Shown piece after piece: positions 12,889 to 26,507 of a stretch of 64,000 nt of DNA. Source of the DNA: Dyella terrae (GTDB taxonomy: Bacteria; Pseudomonadota; Gammaproteobacteria; Xanthomonadales; Rhodanobacteraceae); contig NZ_SIZZ01000001.1 in assembly GCF_004322705.1 (NCBI RefSeq), positions 434,001 through 498,000 on the forward strand, given 5' to 3'. Each line of letters starts with the position of its first letter. Positions within the stretch are counted from its first letter, which is position 1. Position numbers and translations under genes: made by a program. The notes under the pieces were generated by a model. The model did not search any database. It was not told where the DNA came from and saw nothing but the letters and a program-made list of their open reading frames with translations.

Positions 12889-13225
12889 GGGTATTCCCCT
12901 CGCACAGAGATGTCGGATTCGGTCGTGGCTTGAGCCGGTTTGGCGAGGCGCGGCAACGCTTGCGTGACGCTTACGCCTGTGCGGCAGTTCTATAGGGTCA
13001 GCAGATTCGGCCCGGCTCAGCCTGCTCCGATCCCGCTACACGCGCATCCGCAAAATTCGATGCCGGAGTAAGTAGTTTTACTTCGTAATGGTGATGTCGC
13101 GAGCTGGCGAGGCCCTATGATCTGGCCGGGAGCGCGGTGGACGACAAGACTATGTGCGGCAGCTTGGGGCGCGAGTTCTTGCGATCACGCGAAGAGGGTC
13201 GATCAGGTCGGGTGAGGGGGCTCGT
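12889..13225. other. Intergenic region with shared regulatory candidate
   Basis: About 337 bases between the divergent lipoprotein and small membrane protein genes. No gene is seen. TAAGTAGTTT (13069-13078) and TACTTCGT (13079-13086) repeat words found before the first autotransporter. AAGTA-GTTT-TACTT (13070-13083) forms a small inverted repeat. Confidence 0.45.
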
Positions 13226-13612
13226 ATGACGCGAACGCTTGGATTTTGGGGCGTCTTTGGCGGAAGGCTGCTTCTGCATGTGTTGGTGATCGCGGCCGCT
13301 TCCGTGATGATCGAATGGTTCGTCGTCGCCTGCGTCCCTCATTACCGTTTCAATGGCGGATTGGCGTTCGTAGTGACGGCCTGTTTCGCTTCGCTCCTGG
13401 TGCAGTTTCCGTATTCACGATGGCTGTCGAGTACGTGGCTTTACCCAACGGAGGCCTTCTGCGTCGCAGGGTTTTTGATGGTGTGTCTTGGTGCAGCTTC
13501 GCTGCTGGTGTTGCGGGTTTGGCCCCGGTCGGAGCTGCTGGTTGGACTGGGTTGGGCGTGCTTTATCGCCAACTCCGTCGTTGGGCTGGTGCGTGTCTGG
13601 CGCATGCGATAG
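13226..13612 (+). CDS. Small integral membrane protein of unknown function
   Basis: A 128-residue protein with about four hydrophobic helices (GRLLLHVLVIAAASVMIEWF; GLAFVVTACFASLLVQF; EAFCVAGFLMVCLGAASLLV; LLVGLGWACFIANSVVGL) and a basic tail. I do not recognise the family. The frame opens at 13154, but the ATG at 13226 has GAGGGG 5 bases upstream and starts at the first helix. The downstream split-barrel gene follows after about 70 bases. Confidence 0.65.
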   Translation: MTRTLGFWGVFGGRLLLHVLVIAAASVMIEWFVVACVPHYRFNGGLAFVVTACFASLLVQFPYSRWLSSTWLYPTEAFCVAGFLMVCLGAASLLVLRVWPRSELLVGLGWACFIANSVVGLVRVWRMR

Positions 13613-13684
13613 CCCAAAGGATTGACGCAACCATCATGAAAGTCCGCGCATGGTGCGTCGTCTCACCCGACGGGCACTGCGTCG

Positions 13685-14122
13685 ATGGCGTTCGATGATT
13701 CGGCTTTGCTTGCATACATGCGGAGCCAGCGGCTGGGTGTGGTTGCTTCTGTTGGGCCGCACGGGGAACCGCAGGCGGCGTTGGTCGGCATTGCCGTTTC
13801 GCCGAATTGCGAAGTGATCTTCGATACAGGCGTTCGGGGTCGCAAGCACGCGAACCTGTTGAAGGACCCTCGTGTCGCCGTGGTACTTCAAGGGCCCGGC
13901 GAGCAGACGCTCCAGTTGCAGGGGACAGCGCACTGGCTGGCTCCCGATGACGCCGGGACGGATGAACTGCGTTCGGTCTATTTCGCCGTCTGGCCGGATG
14001 GGCGCGAGCGGGCCGCATCGGGAAAACTGGCGCACTGGTGCGTGAGTCCGCGGTGGGCGAGGTACTCGGACTTCGATCAGGGCCCACTGATCCGGGAGTT
14101 TCGCTGGCCGGCCGTGTCGTAG
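13685..14122 (+). CDS. FMN-binding split-barrel (pyridoxamine-phosphate-oxidase family) protein
   Basis: A 145-residue protein with the PNPOx-like split-barrel pattern: LGVVASVGPHGEPQAALVGI at the start, then EVIFDTGVRGRKHANLLKDPRVAVV. Members bind FMN, F420 or haem; which one is unclear. The C-terminal EFRW matches normal family ends. Oddly, the last codons and the TAG stop (14120-14122) lie inside the transposon-like end that begins at 14115, so the insertion may have supplied the stop codon. Confidence 0.8.
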   Translation: MAFDDSALLAYMRSQRLGVVASVGPHGEPQAALVGIAVSPNCEVIFDTGVRGRKHANLLKDPRVAVVLQGPGEQTLQLQGTAHWLAPDDAGTDELRSVYFAVWPDGRERAASGKLAHWCVSPRWARYSDFDQGPLIREFRWPAVS

Positions 14123-14141
14123 TCCCTTAACTCTGCCACTG
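14115..14141 (+). repeat. Left transposon-like end, cassette 1
   Basis: 27 bases starting TGTCG and containing TCCCTTAACTCTGCCACTG. They match the right end at 23536-23562 (reverse complement) at 23 of 27 positions and the left end at 19436 at 22 of 27. It overlaps the 3' end of the split-barrel gene. Confidence 0.7.
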
Positions 14142-14748
14142 AGTAAAGATGATTGATTGAGTGGTTGATTTCGTCGTTTGCCAAGTGGGGTGATCCTACG
14201 GGTGGGGGCGCCAGGAACGGGAGAGTCATTACGCGCGCGTGGCTTGGCACATCGGGTCGCGGTCTGAACCACGCGCTTGGCGTTGGTCACCTTGTTGCCG
14301 ATGCCCTATCCGGGCAGTTCCCACAGGGGCTCGGAAAATGTGAAGGCATCTTCACCATCATGGCTGCCGGACCCCAGGCGGATCGGCCGTGAGGATTATT
14401 GCCACGTCGACCCGGGCGTTTCACCATGGTGTTAACGCGCAAGCTCTTGCGAGGTACCTGCCTGGTTATTGAACTCTGCCAAGAGGACCGTCATGCACCA
14501 TGCGGCCCTTTCGTTCGTGATGTCGGGCGAACCCTGTGGTGTCGCAAACGCGCATGAATTTACCTGCGGTTTCCTGGCGGAAAACGCAGAGCGTGCTGTT
14601 ACCGGCCAATGCCGGGCCATCGTGCTTTTCAGGAGCGAAAGTTAAGCAGGCAAGGCGAGACGCCACGGCATGCCATGGCAATGGTCGGCGGCTCTGGCGA
14701 AAGATTGATTGCGTGTAGGGCCACTCGAAGCCGAAGGTGGGGAGCGTC
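14142..14748. other. Long stretch without a convincing gene
   Basis: About 600 bases inside cassette 1 between its left end and the LuxR gene. The short open frames have no recognisable domains or good ribosome sites. GAACTCTGCCA at about 14469 partly resembles the core repeat of the cassette ends. Confidence 0.5.
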
Positions 14749-15924
14749 ATGGATGCTCGGATTCGTGGAAAACGTACTGAACTGGAGCCGATTTTGCGCG
14801 CCATGTATGGCGCGCTCGCTGAGGATGTGTCCTTCTGCCACATTCTGGACTTGGTGGCTGGCAATCTTCGTAGCCACATCTCCGCTGTCCACTTCGACGA
14901 CTTTGTTGAATGCAGATCCAGGGTCGATGTGACTGGAGAGATAAGTGCGCCTGAAATCGCCTCGCTCATCCAGGATTATGCAGGCCGGTGGCGCGGTGGA
15001 AACACGTGGATGCAGCGAGGCCTTGAGAAGCTCATCACCCGTGGCTACGGCGACGGTGACGAAGTGGTGGGTGAGAAAGAGCTCCTCGCCATGCCTTACT
15101 ACCAGCACTATCTGCGCCGAGTGGATGTTCGTCACGGCCTTGGCATTTGCCTGTGGCATGCCGGAGCGGAACGGGTCGTGGTCGCATCATTCAATCGTGC
15201 GCCCGCTGAAGGGCCGTTTTCGAAGGAAGAGATGGGTTTTGTCGCAGCGATGAGGCCTCATCTCGTCAACGCCTTCATGATCTACAAGGGCGCCGCCCAA
15301 CTTCGGGACTGCAACCGTTCGCTGATGGCCGCCATGGACATGACGCCGGCTGGCATGATGCAGCTTGATACGGATGGAAAGGTGCTCAAGGCGAACGAGA
15401 GAGCGGAAAAAATCGTTTCGTCCCACATGGGTGTCGCGAGAGAAGGCAAGGGAAGTCTGTCTTTCGATTGCCATGGTGACAGGCTTCGTTTTCATCAGGC
15501 CGTGAAGTCCCTGTGTGCCACCGATGCCGGTGTCCACACGCTGACCATGGTCATTTCCGCATCGAATCACGGCATGCGACCGACTTTGCTTCTTCACTTG
15601 TGCGCGCTGCCTTCGATTACCTGTTTTGGTCCGGCGGTTCGGTTGGTGGCTTTTCTTTGCCCTCTTGCCAGCTTCGATCCTGGCCAATGGAATGCGCAGC
15701 TGATTGGGACCGGGCTCGGTTTGACCACTGCGGAGGCGCGCGTGCTTGTCGCCTTGCGCCGACACCATGATGTCGATGACGCCGCTGCCGAACTCGGTGT
15801 TGCAACCTCCACGGTTCGTACTCACCTGAAGCATGCGTTTGCGAAAACGGGAGCCAGTGGCCAGGCCGAGCTGCTGGCGATTGTCGAGCGGATCATTACC
15901 TTGGCGCCTTCCAGCAAGGTCTAG
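14749..15924 (+). CDS. LuxR-type HTH transcriptional regulator
   Basis: A 391-residue regulator. The C-terminal LuxR/GerE helix-turn-helix covers about residues 323-378 (LTTAEARVLVALRRH ... ELGVATSTVRTHLKHAFAKTG). The N-terminal 300 residues have no phosphoreceiver and may be a PAS/GAF-like sensor (MTPAGMMQLDTDGKVLKANERAE resembles a PAS segment). ATG 14749 follows GGTGGGGAG. It lies tail-to-tail with an autotransporter 70 bases away, inside the same cassette, so control of that autotransporter is a fair guess. Confidence 0.82.
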   Translation: MDARIRGKRTELEPILRAMYGALAEDVSFCHILDLVAGNLRSHISAVHFDDFVECRSRVDVTGEISAPEIASLIQDYAGRWRGGNTWMQRGLEKLITRGYGDGDEVVGEKELLAMPYYQHYLRRVDVRHGLGICLWHAGAERVVVASFNRAPAEGPFSKEEMGFVAAMRPHLVNAFMIYKGAAQLRDCNRSLMAAMDMTPAGMMQLDTDGKVLKANERAEKIVSSHMGVAREGKGSLSFDCHGDRLRFHQAVKSLCATDAGVHTLTMVISASNHGMRPTLLLHLCALPSITCFGPAVRLVAFLCPLASFDPGQWNAQLIGTGLGLTTAEARVLVALRRHHDVDDAAAELGVATSTVRTHLKHAFAKTGASGQAELLAIVERIITLAPSSKV

Positions 15925-15994
15925 CGAAAGTGGATTCTGCCGGTGTCCGCTGTCTGCCGACTTTTTTCATGGCTGTCGCCATCGCATGGCTTCT

Positions 15995-18900
15995 TCAAAA
16001 GGTAAGCGACAGGAGCAGATTGACCGATTGGTCCTTTGCCGAACCTGCAAACTGACCCCGATAGCCACCGCTCAGTATCAGGTTGGAGGTTAGCGCCAGA
16101 TCGATGCCCGCCGACACGGCCATGGCATCTTTCGCCACCGCCATGCCCGTGACAGTGAACGCATCTCCACCATCCAGGAAGCGCATCGTGTCCTTCGGCA
16201 AGTGATCGCCCCAGGCGTGCTGCCATCCAAGACTTCCCTCCAGCGCGAATTCACCCTTGGCGCCGAGTACAGCAAGCCCTCGCACGCCCAGCGTCGCATA
16301 CGTCTGCCGCGACGTAGCCGCATCCACATTCAGTGCTGCATTCGAACCGCGCTCGTGGATGGCGTCGGTATGCACACGCACCTGCGCCAGGCTGAGCGCG
16401 GGCTCCAGTATGCCCCGTGGCAGCTCGGTCACATGGCTGGCCTCGATATAGCCTTGGGCGAGATTTGCGTGATATCGCCCGCTGGGTTCGCTCGACAGAC
16501 TTCCGATGGTCACCGTTCGCTGGCTATCCAGTCGTTCCCAGGCGTATATCGCTGCAGCCCGAAACCGAAAGGCACTCACGCTTGTACTGCCGTAAATGCC
16601 AAAGTGGGTTGCCGTGACGTCAGTGGATGCAGACGGGTCATTCATGTGAATGTTGTTTCGGCTACCTCCCGCCAACGCCCCCAGAAGCAGGGTGCTACCT
16701 AACGTCATGTCCGCTCCCACCAGAAAGCCGCTGCCGCTTGCTCGCAGTTGCTGGTGTTGCGCGGTGGCGTCGTGGTCACCGCGATGGCCCCACGCACCGA
16801 TCCAAGTGGAAAACGTGTCACCGCCATGGGCACTTTGACCATTGACGGAGTTCAAGGAGCCCGCCAGGTGATCATTGACGGTTTGCCGGACGTAGTAGCT
16901 GTCTTCGACCAGTGCGGTGCGCACGCTGGGATGAAAGTCGCCTGCCAGTGATGCCAACGCGCCACCCACCAGGGCGGTATTTGTCAGCTGATTGGTCAAG
17001 TCGGTGATGAGCGCACTGTCGGCGGGCAGGCTATCCAACGCAGCACCGACAGATCGTTGATTGGCATTGCTGCCAAAGCTGGCGAACGTGAGGTCATTGC
17101 GTTGTACCGTGAGCAGGATGCCGCCATTGCCATAGGTCAACCCATATCCAAGAAAAGGGGTGATGCTGCCGTCGACGGCGTCAAACTGGCCGCTTGTCGT
17201 TCCGGCGACCTGCAAAAGTTGGAGCTGCGTTCCCGGGGTGAGGCCTGCGGTGCCGATAGGGATTACCTGCAACGTCGCGCCCGGCTCGATCACGACATTG
17301 CCGCCGACCGTGATGCTGTCGTGCAGGCCCCGGCCGGGATCGATTTCAGCCTCGTAGGTCGACCCGGATTGCATGGTGAGGTCACCATCGACGTGCAAAG
17401 TGCCCGGCGAATGCCCAGGCGCGATAGCGCCCGCCGCGATGACGGTGCCGACGCTACCGGAGCAGGCCAGGGTGCCACCTTGCCCGACGTTGATGACGCC
17501 TCCCAATGCACCATCGACACAGAGGGTTGCGCCATTCCGGACGGTGGTAACGCCAATGAAGAGGCGGCTGTCCGCCGTGAGTCGAGTGAATCCCGCGTCG
17601 ACATCCATCGTGCCGTTGCCACTCATGGCCGACGCAAAATCGTAAGTACCGGCCGTGTGGTTGAACGCCAGGCGGCTGGTGGGGGCGCTGAACACCAGCG
17701 TCGGCGTACTCAGCAAGCCCGGCGTCGAGGTGAGTGCCGCGCCTGACGGGTTGCCAATGACGATGCTGCCAAGCTCGCCCAGCGTCATTCCGCCCGAGAC
17801 AATCACCTGGCCCTCATCCGCGACTTGCAGGGTGCCGCCATTCGTCGCTGTCATCGTGCCGGCAACCTGCAAGTGGGAGTCGGCGTCATGTACCGCCACC
17901 GTTCCACCCGACCCGGATGACTTGCCCGTGACGGTTCCGGATCCCGTGACCGTCATCGTGCCGCCCTTGGCAATCTCCAGCAGATCGTTGTTTCCCTGGC
18001 CGACGACAAGAACGGTTTTGTTCACGGCGCCCGAGCCGATCTCGAGTAGGGAGCCGACCCCTGATACAAGAACCGTCCCCGTGCCGACCTTGCTGCCGTT
18101 TGAACTTCCAACCAGGAAGGTATTTCCCGTAAAACGGGCGGTGCCAGCGTCCAGGATACTCAACACCCCTTTGCCGCCACGCCCTATCTCCAAGCCGTTG
18201 TCGCTGTACCAGGTGGATCCGGCTCCCGAAACAGTTACCGAGCCCTGGCCGTTCAACTCGGCCTGACCACGCCTGGCGTCTGCCGCCATGGCGACGCCAA
18301 TGACGCTATCGAAGTAACCGACGCCTTCCGCCGGGCGGGCACGATTGATCAGCTGCCCGCCGTCGCGAACGTCAACGGTGCCATTGAGCAAATTGAGCCC
18401 ACCTCCATAGCTGAGCGTCGAATTTGCGCCGGATACGCTGATCGCACCGGTGCCGCCGCTGACATCGCTCTGGCCATTCCAGCCGCTCCTGCCTCCAAGT
18501 CCGAAACCGACAAGAAGTTCGCTACCGGGACTGGCGATTCCCAGTTCGACCGTGGCGCCGTTGGTGATGGATAGCGAGCCTTGTCCCGCGTAACCAATCA
18601 ATGCATTGGCGTTCACCGATAGGGAGGCCCCCGCACCGTCTAACGCCACGCGTCCGGAACTGCTCTTTGAGACACCAAGGATCATGCCAAATCCGACGCT
18701 TGGCTCGGCACCGACGACTTGCAGCGTCCCACCTGGGGTGACATCCAGTTCGCCGCTGCCAGAATTGCCCACGATCAGCCAGCCGATGGCGTCGTTGCCA
18801 GCGATGCGGGCGATGTTTGGGGTGGACCGATCAATATCGGTGCCAAGCGTGGCTCCCGGAGGAATCGTCCAGTTCCTCGGCTCATGCCAGTCGGAAGAGA

Positions 18901-19054
18901 CACCACCCGTCCATTGTGCCGTCTGCGCCGCGGCCATGCGGGCATCACCCAGCAGCAGGACCAGGCCAATGGCGATGGCCAAGGGCTGATGATGTGCAGT
19001 CCTGATTCGGTCGGCCCGGGCACGGCACAACAGTTTCGCCGCAGGTATCTTCAT
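15995..19054 (-). CDS. Type Va autotransporter (PATR-type passenger)
   Basis: A 1019-residue autotransporter. An extended signal peptide reaches AMAAAQ-like cleavage near residue 43. The passenger starts with QWTGGVSSDWHEPRNW and has many GSGSVTVSGAGSTW-like repeats typical of passenger-associated transport repeats. The C-terminal beta-barrel (about 745-1019) ends in LLSLTF with the classical terminal Phe. ATG 19054 has GGGGAA 6 bases upstream; the open frame to 19231 lacks a signal. It is carried in cassette 1 with the LuxR regulator. Confidence 0.9.
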   Translation of the reverse strand: MKIPAAKLLCRARADRIRTAHHQPLAIAIGLVLLLGDARMAAAQTAQWTGGVSSDWHEPRNWTIPPGATLGTDIDRSTPNIARIAGNDAIGWLIVGNSGSGELDVTPGGTLQVVGAEPSVGFGMILGVSKSSSGRVALDGAGASLSVNANALIGYAGQGSLSITNGATVELGIASPGSELLVGFGLGGRSGWNGQSDVSGGTGAISVSGANSTLSYGGGLNLLNGTVDVRDGGQLINRARPAEGVGYFDSVIGVAMAADARRGQAELNGQGSVTVSGAGSTWYSDNGLEIGRGGKGVLSILDAGTARFTGNTFLVGSSNGSKVGTGTVLVSGVGSLLEIGSGAVNKTVLVVGQGNNDLLEIAKGGTMTVTGSGTVTGKSSGSGGTVAVHDADSHLQVAGTMTATNGGTLQVADEGQVIVSGGMTLGELGSIVIGNPSGAALTSTPGLLSTPTLVFSAPTSRLAFNHTAGTYDFASAMSGNGTMDVDAGFTRLTADSRLFIGVTTVRNGATLCVDGALGGVINVGQGGTLACSGSVGTVIAAGAIAPGHSPGTLHVDGDLTMQSGSTYEAEIDPGRGLHDSITVGGNVVIEPGATLQVIPIGTAGLTPGTQLQLLQVAGTTSGQFDAVDGSITPFLGYGLTYGNGGILLTVQRNDLTFASFGSNANQRSVGAALDSLPADSALITDLTNQLTNTALVGGALASLAGDFHPSVRTALVEDSYYVRQTVNDHLAGSLNSVNGQSAHGGDTFSTWIGAWGHRGDHDATAQHQQLRASGSGFLVGADMTLGSTLLLGALAGGSRNNIHMNDPSASTDVTATHFGIYGSTSVSAFRFRAAAIYAWERLDSQRTVTIGSLSSEPSGRYHANLAQGYIEASHVTELPRGILEPALSLAQVRVHTDAIHERGSNAALNVDAATSRQTYATLGVRGLAVLGAKGEFALEGSLGWQHAWGDHLPKDTMRFLDGGDAFTVTGMAVAKDAMAVSAGIDLALTSNLILSGGYRGQFAGSAKDQSVNLLLSLTF

Positions 19055-19369
19055 CGTTGTTCCCCACGATAGGGCGGATCGCCTCTGTCCATCCCGGGGT
19101 CCTTGAAGCTGAGCGAACAGCTCGACGCTTCGGACCCGGAACGCTCGTTGCCGGGAACTATCAGCAGTTGCGGATGCCACCGCCTCCCTCAAATGAGGGA
19201 GACATGGCCACCACAGACGCATTTGTTTCACGATGAGTGGGCCAGGCGGGTGGCGCGATACACACAGCAGTGTGTTAGCCCCTCTTGGCTGTGAGTGCCT
19301 TGCAGTCCGTTGGCTGGGTGGGGGCCCGGATCCAAACGGCCATCGGTGTCACAGGCGCTTTTTCGCGCC
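19055..19369. other. Upstream region of autotransporter 2, no gene
   Basis: About 315 bases between the autotransporter start and the cassette right-end array. It should contain the autotransporter promoter. No convincing coding frame or strong symmetric operator is seen. Confidence 0.4.
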
Positions 19370-19433
19370 GTGCCAACGTCAAGGCGAGCGCCCAAGTCAT
19401 GGGCTTCCCTGCCAAGGTTAAGAACGCTCGGCA
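19370..19433 (-). repeat. Right transposon-like end array, cassette 1 (degenerate)
   Basis: Three diverged copies of the core GTGCCAGCGTTAGGGGC start at 19370, 19388 and 19409 (spacing 18 and 21), and the end TCGGCA is at 19433, 24 bases from the last copy start. Cassette 2 shows the same layout at 23498, 23517 and 23538 (19, 21, 24). Confidence 0.6.
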
Positions 19434-19435
19434 GG

Positions 19436-19462
19436 TGTCGTCATCCCCTAACCCTGTCACTG
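19436..19462 (+). repeat. Left transposon-like end, cassette 2
   Basis: Starts TGTCGTCATCCCC and contains one inverted core repeat (19444-19460). It begins 2 bases after the right end of cassette 1. Confidence 0.7.
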
Positions 19463-19968
19463 GGCGCAGTTGTTTGAAATAGCCTGATTGTTCTTGCTGG
19501 GGGACGTGACTGCGGTGCTTGAGTGTCAGCGCTAGGAGCGAATAGCCGCCTAGCGTCAGCGCTAATGGCCAATTCAGGCATCGTTGTGCTCCCCAATCTC
19601 CTTAGGTGCAATCTGATTAGGCGCGCGGGCAGCTTCCCGCGTCCGCGACGGCCTTGGTGAGGGCTTTGCCGGCGACCTGGTCCAGCGGTATGAGGCCAGA
19701 CGAGGCATTTGCGACTGAGGATTCCCACTGTGAAGATCCTGCGACGTCGGCAGGGATGGCCTCTGGCAAGGGACCCCCAGCCACCTCTTGAAAACTTAGC
19801 AAATGCTTAGATTGGGCAATCAGATGCACGGACTACCCAGATTTTGTGATCTCAGTCCCTTGCGTATACCTTGCGATTCGCCGTAGCTGGCTGGCAGACT
19901 AATCGTAAGAGAAAGCGCTAGGCGCAATTAGCTGCGCCTCCCGTTCTCGACAAGGATGTCGAAAGGGG
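19463..19968. other. Non-coding region with extra end-like repeats and a gene remnant
   Basis: Two further repeat copies, GTGTCAGCGCTAGGAGC (19523-19539) and GCGTCAGCGCTAATGGC (19553-19569), lie 30 bases apart. They resemble terminal repeats of a different IS21-like element. A minus-strand open frame at 19617-19829 (ending SCPRA) looks like a gene fragment I cannot identify. No intact gene is seen. Confidence 0.4.
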
Positions 19969-20396
19969 TTGGTCAAATGGCGTGTAGTCGGGGCTCAATC
20001 ACCGGCCGGTACGGCAGAAGTACTCTCAGACATCGACTTCGACGTGCAGCCCGGCGAGGTCATCGGCATCGTTGGGCGCTCTGGTTCAGGTAAGAGCACC
20101 CTGACGAAATTGGTGCAGCGCCTATACGTGCCAGAACGTGGGCGCGTCCTGATTGATGGACATGACCTGGCGCTGGCGGACCCCGCTTGGCTTCGGCGCC
20201 AACTGGGTGTCGTTCTCCAGGAGAACTTTCTCTTTAACCGAAGTGTGCGAGATAACATCGCGATTGGCGATCCAGGCATGCCAATGGATCGCGTCATACA
20301 AGCTGCACGGCTGGCGGGCGCGCACGACTTCATAGTTGATCTTCCGCAGGGCTATGACACTACGGTGGGCGAACATGGTGCAAGTCTATCGGGTGT
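19969..20396 (+). pseudogene. Truncated HlyB-type ABC transporter ATPase fragment
   Basis: The frame encodes the middle of a type I secretion ABC ATPase: [17 protein letters not shown] (Walker A), [17 protein letters not shown] (Q loop) and [14 protein letters not shown]. Homology stops in the ABC signature LSGGQ after LSG. The transmembrane and peptidase regions, Walker B and the H-loop are absent, so it cannot work. Sequence then switches directly into an HlyD-like protein, so an internal deletion joined the two. The similarity begins near 19990 with no sensible start codon. Confidence 0.75.
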
Positions 20397-21121
20397 CCGA
20401 CTACGAAGCACTCTTGGACAAGAACTATGTGCCGCGGCAGGAATACCTTCTCCGCAAGCAAGAACGCATCAATGCGGAACGTGACCTAGCCGCGCAGCGC
20501 AGCAAGGCACAGGAACTGAGATCCGCGATCACGGGGGCACGTGAGGAATTGGCATTATCTGTCGCCGATCTTCGACGACAGACTTTAGATGAACTGCGTC
20601 AAGCGCGAGAGCAAATCGCACAATACGAACCTGAGGTCGCAAAGACCAGGCAGCGCAACGCTCAGATGGAGCTCCGCGCTCCAGCTAACGGCACCGTCCA
20701 ACAGCTCGTTGTGCACACTATTGGCGGTGTAGTCACGCCTGCGCAACCGATCCTTTCGGTCGTACCAGATGATGAACCTCTGGAGGTCGAGGTAACCATC
20801 CTGAACAAGGATATCGGCTTCATCCGGCCAGGCCAGGAGGCGGCCGTTAAGATCGACAGCTTTCCTTATACCCGATATGGCCAGGTAGAAGGTCGAGTTG
20901 AAAGCGTTTCGCACGATGCAATTCAAGACGAGAAGCTTGGATTGATCTATTTGGCGCGGGTGGCTATTGAGAAAAACTCGATCGCTGTAGACGGATCGCT
21001 AGTTGATTTGACACCCGGCATGACGCTATCGGTTGAGATCAAGACCGACAAGCGTCGTGTGATTGACTACATCCTATCGCCACTAACTCAGATGCGAAGC
21101 GAGGCAATGCGCGAGCGATGA
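20372..21121 (+). pseudogene. Truncated HlyD-type membrane fusion protein fragment
   Basis: About 240 residues of the C-terminal part of a type I secretion adaptor: coiled coil ([20 protein letters not shown] ... [18 protein letters not shown]), lipoyl-type segment (MELRAPANGTVQQLVVHTIG) and beta-barrel (IGFIRPGQEAAVKIDSFPYT), with a normal HlyD end. The N-terminal membrane anchor and the first half of the hairpin are missing. The upstream junction at about 20393-20400 abuts the ABC fragment, consistent with one deletion in an hlyB-hlyD operon. An ATG at 20375 opens the frame, but a functional product is unlikely. Confidence 0.72.
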
Positions 21122-21167
21122 TACCACGGTCATTTCTCGCCAGAATAGAAACGGGGAGATGGGAAGC

Positions 21168-21527
21168 ATGGCAACGATGACAGCAATTGATTTCGCCGCG
21201 GTCGGATCGCTATGCGGCGGTATCGCGATAGCAATGTTCAATAAGGGACTCACTGACGGTGCCAGGAATGGGGCTGCTCGCGTCGCTTGGTTCCTTGTAG
21301 GGATCGCATTCGCGCGCGCAGTGTATAGAGGAAGCCTCGGACTCATATACGCACTTGAAGTAGGTGATGTTGTTGCCGGAACCCGAGGCGGTGGAAATCT
21401 CCTGTTTCATCGGGATGAACATCCACTGTGGTTCTGGCTGGCCGTCTCTGCGCAAACGACAGGCATGGTAATGGTTGCCTTTCTGGCGTGTACCTGCATC
21501 TGGAAAGCCCTAAAAAAGGGCGGTTGA
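21168..21527 (+). CDS. Unknown small membrane protein in cassette 2
   Basis: A 119-residue protein with about three hydrophobic segments (FAAVGSLCGGIAIAMF; ARVAWFLVGIAFARAV; LWFWLAVSAQTTGMVMVAFLAC) and a KKGG tail. I do not recognise it. ATG 21168 has GGGGAG 9 bases upstream; another in-frame ATG lies at 21159. It starts 46 bases after the HlyD remnant, so it may have belonged to the same operon. Confidence 0.5.
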   Translation: MATMTAIDFAAVGSLCGGIAIAMFNKGLTDGARNGAARVAWFLVGIAFARAVYRGSLGLIYALEVGDVVAGTRGGGNLLFHRDEHPLWFWLAVSAQTTGMVMVAFLACTCIWKALKKGG

Positions 21528-21719
21528 CTCAATCCTCAAGGAAGCTGAACCATCATGCAGTTGACTTGGGATACGCCTCGTTGACCATGCCCGTCAAAGT
21601 ACCGCTCGCCAACGAACACGGTGTACACAACACCATCTAAGTGGTCGTTCCGGAGCGCCCACGTATGTGGCGCTCCGGAACCAATAGCCGGGCTTAAGTC
21701 GTCGAGGGTAATATCACAG

Positions 21720-21887
21720 ATGCCATTAGACATCTTGAGTGGCTGCATCGTACTGTCTCATCTGCGATGGAATAGCCTCAATCCGCCGTCTCGCTGGGAA
21801 ACGTTGTTTACGCTCGCGGTCTTGATCGGAGGCGCCATTACGGCTTTCTGGCCTGTCCTGTCGAAATGGTGGCGAGGACGTAAATAA
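21720..21887 (+). CDS. Possible short single-helix membrane peptide
   Basis: A 55-residue frame with one strong hydrophobic helix (TLFTLAVLIGGAITAFWPVL) followed by a basic tail SKWWRGRK. There is no clear ribosome site and no family match that I know. It could be a holin-like or toxin-like peptide or a spurious frame. Confidence 0.25.
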   Translation: MPLDILSGCIVLSHLRWNSLNPPSRWETLFTLAVLIGGAITAFWPVLSKWWRGRK

Positions 21888-22472
21888 AACTCCCGGAGCT
21901 TGTTATAGGACGACGAAGAAACCCTCGGAATTACTGACGGCATCCTGCAAGTGCGGAACAGAGACATTCCTTGGCAAGTTGGGACCTTGTTGTATTGGGC
22001 ACGCTAGAGCCGAATTGATATCTGACTCAAGCTGTCCGCGGCACTCGGATGGGATGGCTTCAGGCCACTTCGCGCTACCGAATTGGTACCTGAAGATCAT
22101 CCAGCGCCGTAACGGGTGCTGGCCAATTGCGCTAAACACGCCTTGACGAGCCCTCGGCCACGAAGGCCGGCCATTCATTTGGAACGGATGTTATGGAGGC
22201 CGTAGTGATTCCTGCCAGAGCGCCTGTGAGCGTCATCGGAATGCGGAGCTCAGGTCGAGGTGGCATGGCGAAGTCGACGGCATGATCGATGCTCTCGGAG
22301 AATTCAAGTACATCGCTCAGGTAGGCACGCAGATATCCACCGGATAAGCTGCGCAATCAGCATTGACAAAGGGTTCTGACAAGGTTCTTTTCTCTCTTAG
22401 GCGAGCACTCGGTGGACTGCGCCCGGCCGGTCGAAGGTCGTGACTTGGCAGTAGTTGGTGATATGACCAATC
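21888..22472. other. Degenerate region in cassette 2, possible broken minus-strand gene
   Basis: About 585 bases without an intact gene. Two overlapping minus-strand frames (21903-22178 and 22132-22356) are both protein-like and may be one frameshifted gene. The downstream part contains WPEAIPSEC, echoing LPEAIPADV in the 19617-19829 fragment. Confidence 0.3.
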
Positions 22473-23342
22473 CTAAGGCTTAGTGGCCTTCGCCGCGGTT
22501 GCTGTGTGCCTCATTTCTATCGCCTCAGCCTGTGCGTTAGCCAGCTCCGCCACTGTGCCTCGAATGACGTGGTCCTTGAATTGGATCGGGACCAGTGTTG
22601 ATAGTTTGCCCGTCGCTGTCGAGCAGGCGTCGCTGACACGCCTGATTCGGTTCGGCAAGATGGGGAACGTCACTCGCTGTTCGGCAGTCATGCGCTCGGC
22701 AGTCACATTCTTGTACCCATTGAGGTCCGCCACCAATTGATTTCGCATTTGAATGCACTGTGCCACCGTAGCGGCGATGTCCGAAGGTCCTTTCGCTAAA
22801 TAAGCGATCTGATCGGCGGATAGATCGGCTGATGCGATGCGACCGCTTAGGTGTTGAATGAAGGCAAGGCCGCGCTTGTTCGGCTGAATCATGAGTGCGT
22901 CGGGCGATCGCAATCCGATGCTCTTCAATCGCCAGTCGGCGTCTTTGGTCGAATCTACTATCTCGTTTAGACGCTCTTTGATTAGCAGAACCGTGGCCAG
23001 GAACAACGCTTCGTCCGCATTTTTGCTTCTGTCATCCGCGGCTTTGGCCAGGGCGAGCGCTTTTTCGCTCGTCTGTCCTGCGATATGTGTTTCGACAAAG
23101 CTTGCGATAGCCACGAAAAGGCTGAAGACCGCAGCCATAAGTGCTGCCACGGAGATTTTGTCCGATCGTATCCATCCTGTTTGCGAGGAAGTGGTGGTCG
23201 GAGGAGGCAGCATGCTCGGCGGCGGTGATGGGGCTGCAGAATCGGTAGTGGGGGCTGCGTTTGGTGGGTTGGGGTGTGTCATTCGGTGGGGCATCCAGTG
23301 CAAATGTCGTGGAGTGAGCCGATCTTCGACCCTTGGTTCCAT
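22473..23342 (-). CDS. Unknown membrane-anchored protein
   Basis: A 289-residue protein. A proline/threonine-rich N terminus (NPPNAAPTTDSAAPSPPPSM) is followed by a single transmembrane helix at about 65-85 (VAALMAAVFSLFVAIASFV) and a charged, mostly helical C-terminal domain of about 200 residues. No family is recognised. In-frame ATGs lie at 23342, 23294 and 23282 and none has a clear ribosome site, so the start is uncertain. It lies at the right end of cassette 2 and is probably acquired. Confidence 0.5.
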   Translation of the reverse strand: MEPRVEDRLTPRHLHWMPHRMTHPNPPNAAPTTDSAAPSPPPSMLPPPTTTSSQTGWIRSDKISVAALMAAVFSLFVAIASFVETHIAGQTSEKALALAKAADDRSKNADEALFLATVLLIKERLNEIVDSTKDADWRLKSIGLRSPDALMIQPNKRGLAFIQHLSGRIASADLSADQIAYLAKGPSDIAATVAQCIQMRNQLVADLNGYKNVTAERMTAEQRVTFPILPNRIRRVSDACSTATGKLSTLVPIQFKDHVIRGTVAELANAQAEAIEMRHTATAAKATKP

Positions 23343-23497
23343 CGCGAGTGATCACTTGCTGAAGTTCGATGATGCGTTGTAAGTATCGCTTGAAGTCATC
23401 TATCGGTTTCATGCCTGCGCACGAGCCAACCCGCACTGAGCCTCATTTGGGTGTTCTGGTTCGCCGCAGCCCGCGACGGGCGTAATAGGGCCGCCCA

Positions 23498-23562
23498 GTG
23501 CCAGCGTTAGGGGCTAGTGCCAAGGTTAGGGGCGTCAGTGCCAGAGTTAAGGGATGTCGACA
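23498..23562 (-). repeat. Right transposon-like end array, cassette 2
   Basis: Three tandem copies of the core: GTGCCAGCGTTAGGGGC (23498), GTGCCAAGGTTAGGGGC (23517) and GTGCCAGAGTTAAGGGA (23538). The element ends GTCGACA at 23562. Array spacing of about 20 bp suggests helically phased transposase-binding sites. Confidence 0.72.
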
Positions 23563-23586
23563 ACAGGTGGGGCGGAAGGAAAGGGC

Positions 23587-23618
23587 TTGACCCTGGACCT
23601 TGATCAAAGGTCTAGACT
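23587..23618 (+). promoter_or_regulatory. MerR-type promoter with overlong spacer and CueR-like box
   Basis: The -35 is TTGACC (23587-23592) and the -10 is TAGACT (23613-23618), separated by 20 bases. The dyad GACCTT-N5-AAGGTC (23596-23612) sits in the spacer. This is the classic layout for MerR-family activation by DNA untwisting, and the dyad matches CueR-type copper boxes. The predicted transcript would start at or next to the merR ATG (23626). Confidence 0.82.
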
Positions 23619-23625
23619 ATGCCCC

Positions 23626-24051
23626 ATGAACACAACCTCCGCCTCCCTGACTATTGGTGCCGTCGCCAAGCGCGTCGGCGTGGGTATCGACACGATCCGC
23701 TTCTATGAGCGCGAAGGGCTGCTGCCGGAGCCGCTGCGGCGGGCTTCGGGTTATCGCAGCTACGACGAGAGCGCGGTCCGCCAGCTGCGCTTCATCCGTC
23801 GCGCGAAGGACCTTGGTTTCACGCTGGAAGAGATTCGGGATTTGCTGGCGCTGTCCGCTGACCGGAGTCTGGGCGTGAAGGCCGTGAAGCAGCGGGCCCA
23901 GGACCGCCTGGCTGCCATTGACGAGCGCATTGCCGAGCTGACGCGCGTGCGCAACGGGCTGGAACAATTGATCGATGCCTGTCCGGGACATGGTTCGCCG
24001 GACCAGTGCCCGATCCTGCGCGCGCTGGTCGATGAGGAGTCGCAGGCATGA
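23626..24051 (+). CDS. MerR-family metal-responsive activator, CueR/HmrR-like
   Basis: A 141-residue MerR protein. The winged helix lies at about 8-75 ([24 protein letters not shown]), a dimer helix follows, and the C-terminal metal loop contains Cys119 and Cys128 ([13 protein letters not shown]). CueR has C-X7-C; here the loop is C-X8-C, one residue longer, which could alter metal geometry. The gene overlaps the copper ATPase start by 4 bases (ATGA). The frame opens at 23554, but the ATG at 23626 fits the family start and promoter. There is no ribosome site, so it is probably leaderless. It should activate itself and the ATPase in response to Cu(I). Confidence 0.88.
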
Positions 24052-26507
24052 GCACGGAGAAGCACGCTTGCTGCAGTTCGGCATCCAGGGACGAGGCCGC
24101 TCCGACCACGGTGGCGGGTACCACGCCATCGCCACACGGCGATGAGCATCACGCCCATCACCATCACGGGCACGATCATCACGCGCTTCACGATCACGCC
24201 ATGCATCACGCGAACACCGTCAAGGACCCCGTGTGCGGGATGACCGTGGATCCGGCCAAGGCGAAGTTCCAGGCCGATCATGATGGACAGACCTATTACT
24301 TCTGCGCGGCGCGTTGCCACGACAAGTTCGTCGCCGATCCGCAGAAGTACCTGCAACCGGCCGAGCCTGAGCCCGTGATCCCGGGCGCGATCTACACATG
24401 CCCGATGCATCCCGAGATCCAGCAGGTTGGCCCGGGACATTGCCCGAAGTGCGGCATGGCGCTCGAGCCAATGATGCCCACGCTTGACGAGGACGACGGG
24501 CACGAAGTGACGCAGATGTCGCGGCGATTCTGGACGCTCGTGGCGTTGACGCTGCCGGTATTCCTCCTGGCGATGGGGCCGCACTTGTTCGGCTGGCATC
24601 TCCCTTCGCCGTGGGGCGAGGTGGCGGCGTGGACCGAAATGGCCTTGTCGACGGTCGTCGTCCTGTGGGGTGGCGCAAGCTTCTTCAAGCGCGGCTGGCA
24701 ATCGCTGAAGCCGTGGTCGCCGAACATGTACACCCTGATCGCGCTGGGTACCGGCGTGGCATGGATTTACAGCATGGTGGCGTTCTTCCTGCCAGGTATG
24801 TTCCCGGAGGCATTCCGGAACGCGCACGGTCGCGTGGACGTCTATTTTGAATCGGCTGCGGTGATCGTCACGCTGGTGATGCTCGGTGATTTCCTTGAGT
24901 TGCGTGCGCGTCGCCGGACGGGTGCGGCCCTGAAGGCCTTGCTGGGGCTTGCCCCCAAGACGGCGCGTCGCGTCGAGGCCCATGGCGAGGAAGTCGACGT
25001 TTCGCTCGACGAAGTGCACGAAGGCGATGTGCTGCGTGTCCGTCCGGGCGAAAAGGTGCCTGTGGATGGCATCGTGCTGGAAGGACGCAGCCACGTCGAC
25101 GAATCGATGCTCACCGGCGAACCATTGCCGGTGGAGAAGCTGAAGGGTGACACCGTGACCGGTGGCACCGTCAACCAGGATGGCGCGCTGATGATGCGTG
25201 CCGAGAAGGTTGGCGCGCAAACCATGCTGGCCCAAATCGTGAACCTCGTGGCGCAGGCACAACGCAGCAAGGCGCCCTTGCAACGCGTGGCCGATCGCGT
25301 GGCGGCGTGGTTCGTCCCCGCTGTGGTTGCAGCCAGCGTGCTCGCATTCATGGCCTGGGCAGTGATCGGGCCCGAGCCGCGCATGGCGCATGCGCTGATT
25401 GCACTGGTGTCCGTGCTGATCATTGCCTGTCCCTGTGCGCTCGGCCTGGCGACCCCGATCTCCATCATGGTCGCGAGCGGCCGCGGCGCGCGTCATGGCG
25501 TGCTGTTCAAGGATGCCGGTGCCATCGAGGGCTTGCGTGATGTAGATACCTTGCTGGTCGACAAAACAGGCACGCTGACCGAAGGCAAGCCGTCACTGCG
25601 CGACGTGGTGGTGCTCGATGCAGTCTATACGCAGGCCGAGCTGCTGGCATGGGCGGCGGCACTGGAGAAGCCGAGCGAACATCCGCTGGCTCGCGCGATT
25701 CTTGCCGGCGCGAAAGAGCGCGATGTGCGCGTGCCGGATATCGCCGAGTTTGGCACCTTGACGGGCGGCGGCGTGGGCGGTCGTGTCGAAGGTCGTGGCC
25801 TGGCCCTGGGCAACTTGCGCCTGATGGAATCGCTGCACGTCACCGTCAACGACGCTGCCGCAGCGCAGGCGGATGAATTGCGCAAGAACGGCTCGACGGT
25901 GATGTTCCTTGCCGTGGACGGAAAGCTCGCTGGCCTGATGGCGGTGGCCGACCGCATCAAGGAGACGACGCCTCGGGCGATCGAAGCGCTGCATCGCGCC
26001 GGACTGCGCGTGGTCATGGTGACGGGCGACAACGCCGTGACCGCCGCGGCCGTAGCACGCACACTGGGTATTGATGAGGTGCGCGCGGACGTGTCGCCGG
26101 CGGACAAGGCCGCCGTCGTCAACGAACTTCGTGCGGCGGGTCATCGCGTCGCGATGGCCGGTGATGGCATCAATGATGCGCCGGCGCTCGCCGCCGCGGA
26201 TATTGGCATCGCCATGGGTGGTGGCACGGACGTGGCGATGGAAAGTGCTCAGGTGACCCTGGTCAAGGGCGAGCTCACGGCGCTGGTGCGTGCACGTACC
26301 TTGTCGCGGGCCACGGTCGGCAATATTCGCCAGAATCTTTTCTTCGCCTTCATCTACAACGCGTTGGGCGTGCCGCTCGCGGCAGGTGTCCTTTACCCCG
26401 TGCTGGGCATCACGCTGTCGCCGATGATTGCGGCACTGGCCATGAGCCTGTCGTCGGTGTCGGTGGTGACCAACGCGCTGCGCCTGAATCGCGTTCCGCT
26501 CGACTGA
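24048..26507 (+). CDS. Copper-translocating P1B-type ATPase
   Basis: An 819-residue heavy-metal exporter. The N terminus is His-rich ([17 protein letters not shown], residues about 34-52), then a YHS domain ([15 protein letters not shown]) and a heavy-metal-binding zinc-ribbon-like domain (YTCPMHPEI ... [11 protein letters not shown]). There is no classical HMA GMTCXXC domain. The core has the CPC motif (about 461), [11 protein letters not shown] (about 504), SEHPLA and [10 protein letters not shown] (about 704), and the last helices contain YN and MSSVSVV-type Cu(I) residues. It is translationally coupled to the CueR-like regulator. It exports Cu(I) from the cytoplasm; silver is also possible. 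Confidence 0.93.

Follow-up and report, generated by a model that had tools for sequence, protein, structure and literature searches.

The window analysed here is a stretch of 64,000 nucleotides of Dyella terrae (contig NZ_SIZZ01000001.1, positions 434,001 to 498,000), in which two abutting cassettes with TnsB-type ends lie upstream of a merR-family regulator gene that is followed by a copper-type P-type ATPase gene (Table 1). The TGTCG left ends at 14115 and 19436, the right ends at 19433 and 23562 and the two bases that separate the cassettes, which an original prediction had proposed without database searches, are all present in the sequence. Both right ends display three direct sites, as proposed, each of 18 nt and with start-to-start spacings of 19 and 21 in either array; the 18/21 spacing assigned to one of them was wrong. 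The single inverted core described for each left end holds for cassette 1, where no inner left-end sites are recognisable, but cassette 2 has further inner sites at +87 and +117. TGT...ACA inverted-repeat termini are found at three of the four window ends, the terminus at 19433 being degraded to GGCA.

Table 1. Features of the two cassettes and of the adjoining merR region (window coordinates)
Feature	Coordinates	Strand	Remarks
Cassette 1	14115..19433	+	5,319 bp, 61% GC, no transposase found
Left end, cassette 1	14115..14140	+	TGTCGTAG and a single inverted TnsB-type site, 14123-14140 (minus strand)
LuxR/GerE-type helix-turn-helix regulator (cassette 1 cargo)	14737..15924	+	395 amino acids (aa), under Pfam cut-off
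Autotransporter (cassette 1 cargo)	15995..19231	-	1,078 aa; Pfam autotransporter beta-domain; type V secretion system (T5SS) repeats
Right end, cassette 1, eroded	19368..19433	+	Sites at 19368, 19387 and 19408, then GCTCGGCA
Inter-cassette gap	19434..19435	.	2 bp
Cassette 2	19436..23562	+	4,127 bp, 56% GC, no transposase found
Left end, cassette 2	19436..19569	+	TGTCG; terminal site 19444-19461 (-); inner sites 19522-19539 (+) and 19552-19569 (+)
Type I secretion ABC transporter fragment (cassette 2 cargo)	19969..20484	+	
HlyD-type type I secretion adaptor, C-terminal part (cassette 2 cargo)	20336..21121	+	
289-aa protein (cassette 2 cargo)	22473..23342	-	Without Pfam or NCBIfam match
Right end, cassette 2	23497..23562	+	TnsB-type sites at 23497, 23516 and 23537, then TGTCGACA
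Attachment site, MerR-type promoter/operator	23587..23617	+	TTGACCCTGGACCTTGATCAAAGGTCTAGAC; 24 bp past right end
merR-family regulator	23623..24051	+	Nearest NCBIfam model CueR, below its cut-off
Copper-type P-type ATPase, after merR	24048..26507	+	

All four window ends are genuine ends of the TnsB type. In a first right-end model the array at 23562 scores 80.6 and that at 19433 scores 2.4, the best of 60 dinucleotide-shuffled windows reaching -2.3. Because this model included the window cores, the models were rebuilt exclusively from 14 right and 10 left ends of other genomes. With the rebuilt right-end model the array at 23562 ranks first within the 64 kb (86.9), followed by that at 19433 (6.9), with a runner-up at -14.5. 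The 19433 end, already described as more diverged, is clearly eroded. The rebuilt left-end model gives 34.0 at 14115 and 29.4 at 19436, while the best place that is not an end scores 16.1, and the terminus at 23562 read inward scores 33.4. As a separate observation, the TGTCGTAG left end (14115-14122) provides, through its TAG, the stop codon of the flanking PNPOx-like gene (13685-14122).

The same arrays occur in other genomes as paired ends around unrelated cargo. Relatives were surveyed in a set of 233 genomes of the bacterial family that contains Rhodanobacter and Dyella. A 101-bp query (23480-23580) matched 3 of 61 genomes, including the window's own, and the pattern AGTGNCANNGTTANGGGNNNNCGACA, allowing one mismatch, occurs at 22 places in 14 of the 233 family genomes, whereas its reversed form, used as a control, hits a single place. 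A search of the whole window genome had been preset as a test of the prediction; the repeats are not scattered there, the pattern being confined to three of the four window ends, the fourth of which is eroded. In the genomes of the order the pattern is present in 11 of 398, many of them already recovered in the family search, and the one match outside the family (G272) is probably due to chance. Alignment of 20 right-type ends reveals three direct sites spaced 19/21 and then a CGACA terminus; several of these ends carry a decayed site, and the 19433 end alone terminates in GGCA. Twelve left ends were scored for inner sites; with values of 6 or more, such a site lies near +87 in nine and near +117 in seven, both oriented opposite to the terminal site; neither was seen at that score in window cassette 1, G151 or G154b. 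In the older right end of G104 (L033 17406-17423) the last 8 bp are present a second time in almost identical form (CCTCGACA TCTCGACA).

Insertion at merR is site- and orientation-specific. The CueR-like merR promoter pattern, with at most two mismatches, is present in 116 of the 233 family genomes and as a single copy in each. Thirteen of the 20 right-type ends face a MerR-type promoter (TTGACTCTRGACCTNGATCAANGGTCTAGAC), six face the left end of the next element and one, on G005:C2, faces neither. The three-site array scores above 0 in 17 of the 116 upstream regions, five of which have one site below 0, and in G015, G106 and G143 only the terminal site is found and the array score is not outstanding. 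A model of the terminal site separates 20 occupied sites, with scores of 6 to 36, from the other 95, which reach at most 3.2; G107, with a score of 14, is a doubtful 21st and is left out of the count. At these 20 sites, which belong to genus groups g14 (11), g11 (5), g1 (3) and g19 (1), the terminus lies 19-26 bp from the TTGAC of the -35 element (mean 21.9, standard deviation 1.9). The right end comes first at all 17 sites whose orientation can be read from the inner sites, and no left-type inner sites adjoin merR among the 30 best-scoring upstream regions. The occupied sites, together with relatives bearing other cargo, support the proposal that non-autonomous cargo elements are aimed at the same spot. 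A search of the class with a strict promoter pattern gave 0 of 321, a result of little information since the pattern also misses the window's own site.

Comparison with empty sites defines what was inserted. Genes lying beside merR in unoccupied relatives were sought in occupied ones and the DNA was then aligned, revealing 3-30 kb inserted at merR in five genomes. At the empty site of G111, homology reaches -36, -35 and -139 bp of TTGAC, and its counterpart stops at -9268 in G101, -14819 in G106 and -10762 in G018. For G100 against G099 homology extends to -115 versus -3499. At the empty sites of G105 and G103 it extends to -78 and -90, and the corresponding DNA in G115 lies about 30.5 kb away with three stacked elements between. 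The insertions thus sit between the conserved flank and the promoter, and this result slightly strengthens an already high confidence in the interpretation given below. The comparison with strains lacking the insert was thus realised with empty merR relatives, although not within the window's own species. In G155 (locus L138) a stretch that lies upstream of the merR promoter by about 0.7 kb matches the G151 element in its left end and flank and has no right end; it is likely to be the remnant of a lost element, and because of this shared left-end stretch G155 was excluded as an empty site.

The elements also stack on one another. Seven junctions of a right end with a left end, separated by gaps of 2-10 bp, are present in six genomes (window, G104, G114, G115 twice, G148 and G154), and the stacked elements have the same polarity. 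Exact 5-bp duplications flank three of the 11 complete elements: those of G104 (275 bp), G113 and G148. In window cassette 2, GCAGG, made of the last 3 bp of cassette 1 and the gap, compares with ACAGG after 23562 (4/5 identical), probably a 5-bp target duplication. In the other seven complete elements, including window cassette 1 and both complete G115 elements, the duplication is not clear. Where it can be read (G104, G148 and, near-exact, the window), the element nearer merR appears to be the later arrival.

The window cassettes are non-autonomous derivatives and not complete Tn7-like transposons. The predicted lack of a transposase holds: homologues of TnsA, TnsB, TnsC and TniQ are absent from the 64-kb window (tblastn, seven queries, E 1e-5), and Pfam detects no transposase among the 17 cassette open reading frames (ORFs) scanned, out of 34 of at least 80 aa. 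Similarly, tns genes are detectable in none of the 11 complete elements, which range from 275 bp to 23.6 kb, and in neither of the two window cassettes. The smallest, in G104 (L033 17131-17405), has both ends and an exact ACAAC duplication and is a miniature Tn7-like element; elsewhere it gives only end-sized matches, in 6 of the 233 genomes including its own.

The transposase to which the ends belong was sought in the same 233 genomes. At E 0.001 some TnsB match, mostly diverged, is found in 56, and a close TnsB (88-100%) in two, G114 (Dyella sp. ASV21) and G023 (Rhodanobacter sp. FW104-R8), the two proteins being 88% identical. Both close sets are of the TnsABC-TniQ type, with Pfam matches to a TnsA-like N domain (below cut-off), Mu-transpos_C, TniB and TniQ, and their TniQ proteins, of about 350 aa, are 60% identical to each other. 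Of the three types originally offered, Tn7-like, Tn5053/Tn402 and IS21, the first therefore stands, with TnsA, TnsB, TniB/TnsC and TniQ in the closest module, and the other two are unsupported. The anticipated tnsB gene with the same ends was found in part. In G114 a close tns set and a left end of the element family share one contig, 16 kb apart; in G231 (TnsB 46%) the DNA directly 3' of tniQ has a right end of three sites, spaced 19/21, with CGACA, and in G134 (TnsB 56%) a related array occupies the same position. The arrays of G231 and G134, beside tniQ, suggest a link between the family and a TnsABC-TniQ transposase. Single related sites occur near the tns sets of G010 and G033. A scan of a species-genome collection for close TnsB gave three loci, among which are the two already described in Dyella and Rhodanobacter, and on plasmids at least 5,000 records matched, all below 60% identity.

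The window genome has a diverged TnsB/TniB/TniQ set of its own at L045 6346-10056 (G000:C1, about 874345-878055), at which no TnsA match is found; with a TnsB only 36% identical and no family ends nearby, it is an unlikely helper. At a distance of about 9 kb from this set is a 435-aa frame that matches a tyrosine recombinase. A tyrosine recombinase as mobiliser was rejected, the Pfam PF00589 matches mapped in 10 genomes being in no case tied to the ends, as was a 288-aa ORF (L030 4843-5709) that resembles such an enzyme by eye and has no Pfam match. That G114 contigs C230, on the merR side, and C154, on the tns side, belong to one element is an attractive possibility.

Each cassette is thus very probably a transposase-less member of one Tn7-like (TnsABC-TniQ) family that inserts at a fixed site upstream of the CueR-like merR promoter and stacks there. 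This confidence covers family, site and stacking; movement is judged on its own, and the cassettes were rather probably mobilised in trans. In such a scheme, TnsB from an autonomous relative would bind the left and right arrays in trans, TnsA and TnsB would excise the element, and TnsC with a TniQ-type selector would place it, right end first, at a set distance from the merR promoter. Cassette 1 would have entered first and cassette 2 would then have inserted between it and merR, its 5-bp duplication (GCAGG/ACAGG) straddling the end of cassette 1. The merR-copA promoter stays intact, so the site would be safe for the host, and a member on a conjugative plasmid would be as expected for the two-pathway life style of Tn7. 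The window cassettes look stranded, given that erosion has reached one of their right ends and that a close TnsB is missing from the genome.

Several observations weigh against this interpretation. No complete element was recovered that combines tns genes with this very pair of ends, the contigs of both close sets ending early; arrays are missing next to four other tns sets (G202, G120, G121 and G200), and the 57 kb read around the window genome's own TnsB hold no family ends. Exact 5-bp duplications are absent from 8 of the 11 complete elements, the plasmid copy on G005:C2 has a flanking repeat of 8 bp and not 5 bp, and orientation is unread at 3 of the 20 occupied sites. An empty site with the window's own flanks was not found among the relatives tested: the left-flank PNPOx-like gene is present in one of six genus genomes, and thus in none of the five others, and apart from merR and copA the window proteins have no conserved place upstream of merR in these relatives.

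The step in trans has one serious competitor, since loss of tns genes after insertion would give the same picture. Complete Tn7-like transposons could have inserted and then decayed in place by deletion of their own tns genes, an account that is possible and leaves family, site and stacking untouched. It would fit the eroded right end of cassette 1 and the broken ABC-HlyD set carried by cassette 2, and the rarity of close TnsB leaves no helper visible for most elements; an internal deletion would equally leave a 275-bp element with its duplication. It is less economical, in that deletion would always have to take all tns genes while sparing both ends, and not one of the 11 complete elements retains them, even where ends are clean and duplications exact.

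A rather improbable extension of the preferred Tn7-like interpretation is that the beacon is the operator of the copper regulator, possibly with host CueR/MerR bound and the promoter DNA underwound, and that a stack of transposase-less cassettes forms with rare helpers and no effective target immunity among family members. The site would on the same doubtful premise be a growing stack, because new elements enter between the beacon and the older ones. If so, a Tn7-like family would home on a transcription-factor complex upstream of a gene rather than on a coding or RNA-gene sequence.

The remaining alternatives are very improbable. TGT...ACA ends with arrays of about 20-bp sites are also found in IS21 and Tn402 types, and stacking at a single site is typical of integrase islands, which would point to another transposase or to attachment sites of a tyrosine recombinase. 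The related arrays, however, adjoin tnsA-tnsB-tnsC-tniQ and not istAB or an integrase, the ends are inverted repeats and exact 5-bp duplications accompany three of the 11 elements. Tn402/Tn5053 elements carry tniA-tniB-tniQ-tniR without tnsA and target res sites; in contrast, the closest sets here have a TnsA-like gene ahead of tnsB, and the target is the merR promoter. IS21 elements have istA-istB between their ends, whereas no transposase is encoded in the 17 of 34 cassette ORFs scanned and the related ends flank tns genes. Hardly more credible is a single 9.4-kb element (14115-23562) with relic internal ends: the outer ends form the best inverted repeat by length in 13000-25000 (14115-14142 with 23535-23562, 28 nt, 86%), yet at the inner junction a right-type and a left-type end follow one another as they do at six further junctions, whose gaps measure 2-10 bp, and the flanks of the outer pair agree at 1/5 positions against 4/5 for cassette 2.

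The family resembles Tn7 and Tn7-like elements, as far as the cited texts describe them, in its TGT/ACA termini, three left-end sites and short dense right array, in entering a chromosomal attachment site in one orientation and without damage to it, in having a plasmid copy, in defence and metal cargo, and in the TnsA/TnsB/TnsC/TniQ of its relatives (PMC8649781, PMC10293859, PMC11406308, PMC10702557). In two of these sources the left end of Tn7 is described as having three sites within about 150 bp, and the right end as a dense array that spans about 90 bp (PMC10702557, PMC8649781). Measured against that account, the right end here has three sites and not four, and the inner left sites run opposite to the terminal one. 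The site lies upstream of the merR promoter and not at glmS, tRNA, parE or comM, and, in a further difference, the cassettes are stacked and lack tns genes. Metal resistance as cargo, like the copper efflux and oxidase set of G005, is also reported for the Tn7-like copper/metal islands of Burkholderia (PMC10702557) and Pseudomonas (cited in PMC8649781). The Burkholderia island carries its tns genes aboard (PMC10702557), whereas the cassettes here lack them and land at the gene of the copper regulator. The MerR-type repressor described for CRISPR-associated transposon (CAST) elements (PMC9938897) is a separate matter from a merR attachment site. Transposase-less elements with intact ends occur in the Tn3 family; the 275-bp G104 element is of the same kind, with Tn3 there and Tn7-like here.

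A merR or cueR attachment site for Tn7-like elements does not appear in the open-licence literature searched. While the Tn7-like kind is already known, apparent novelty lies in the attachment site, in the stacks without tns genes and in the 275-bp member. The apparent new site, a metal-regulator promoter region of which 116 of the 233 family genomes have one copy each, could serve integration tools as a defined landing place. Elements without tns genes, down to 275 bp, and their ordered stacking at one site bear on escape from target immunity. The survey in PMC8649781 started from tnsB; cargo moved by such families may be undercounted, because non-autonomous members are invisible to tnsB-first surveys.

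The cargo differs among elements. The 289-aa protein of cassette 2 has a homologue, 79% identical, within a family element of G115 (L030 7555-8385). For the ABC-HlyD genes of the same cassette, homologues of 84-85% identity lie upstream of merR in G159. Other elements carry an AbiE pair (G023), a Type II methyltransferase with an LmuB-like protein (G115) or copper resistance (G005); the large G115 element also contains pieces of rve-type transposases, taken for insertion sequences. The G005:C2 element (L005 1624-13651), with its copper efflux and oxidase set, lies on a contig that is a conjugative plasmid, as TraI_2 relaxase and coupling-protein genes are present, and G005 bears a further right end at its chromosomal merR. 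In Dyella sp. ASV21, the Wadjet genes JetA, JetC and JetD are located between the tns genes and the family left end (L031 10188-16970).

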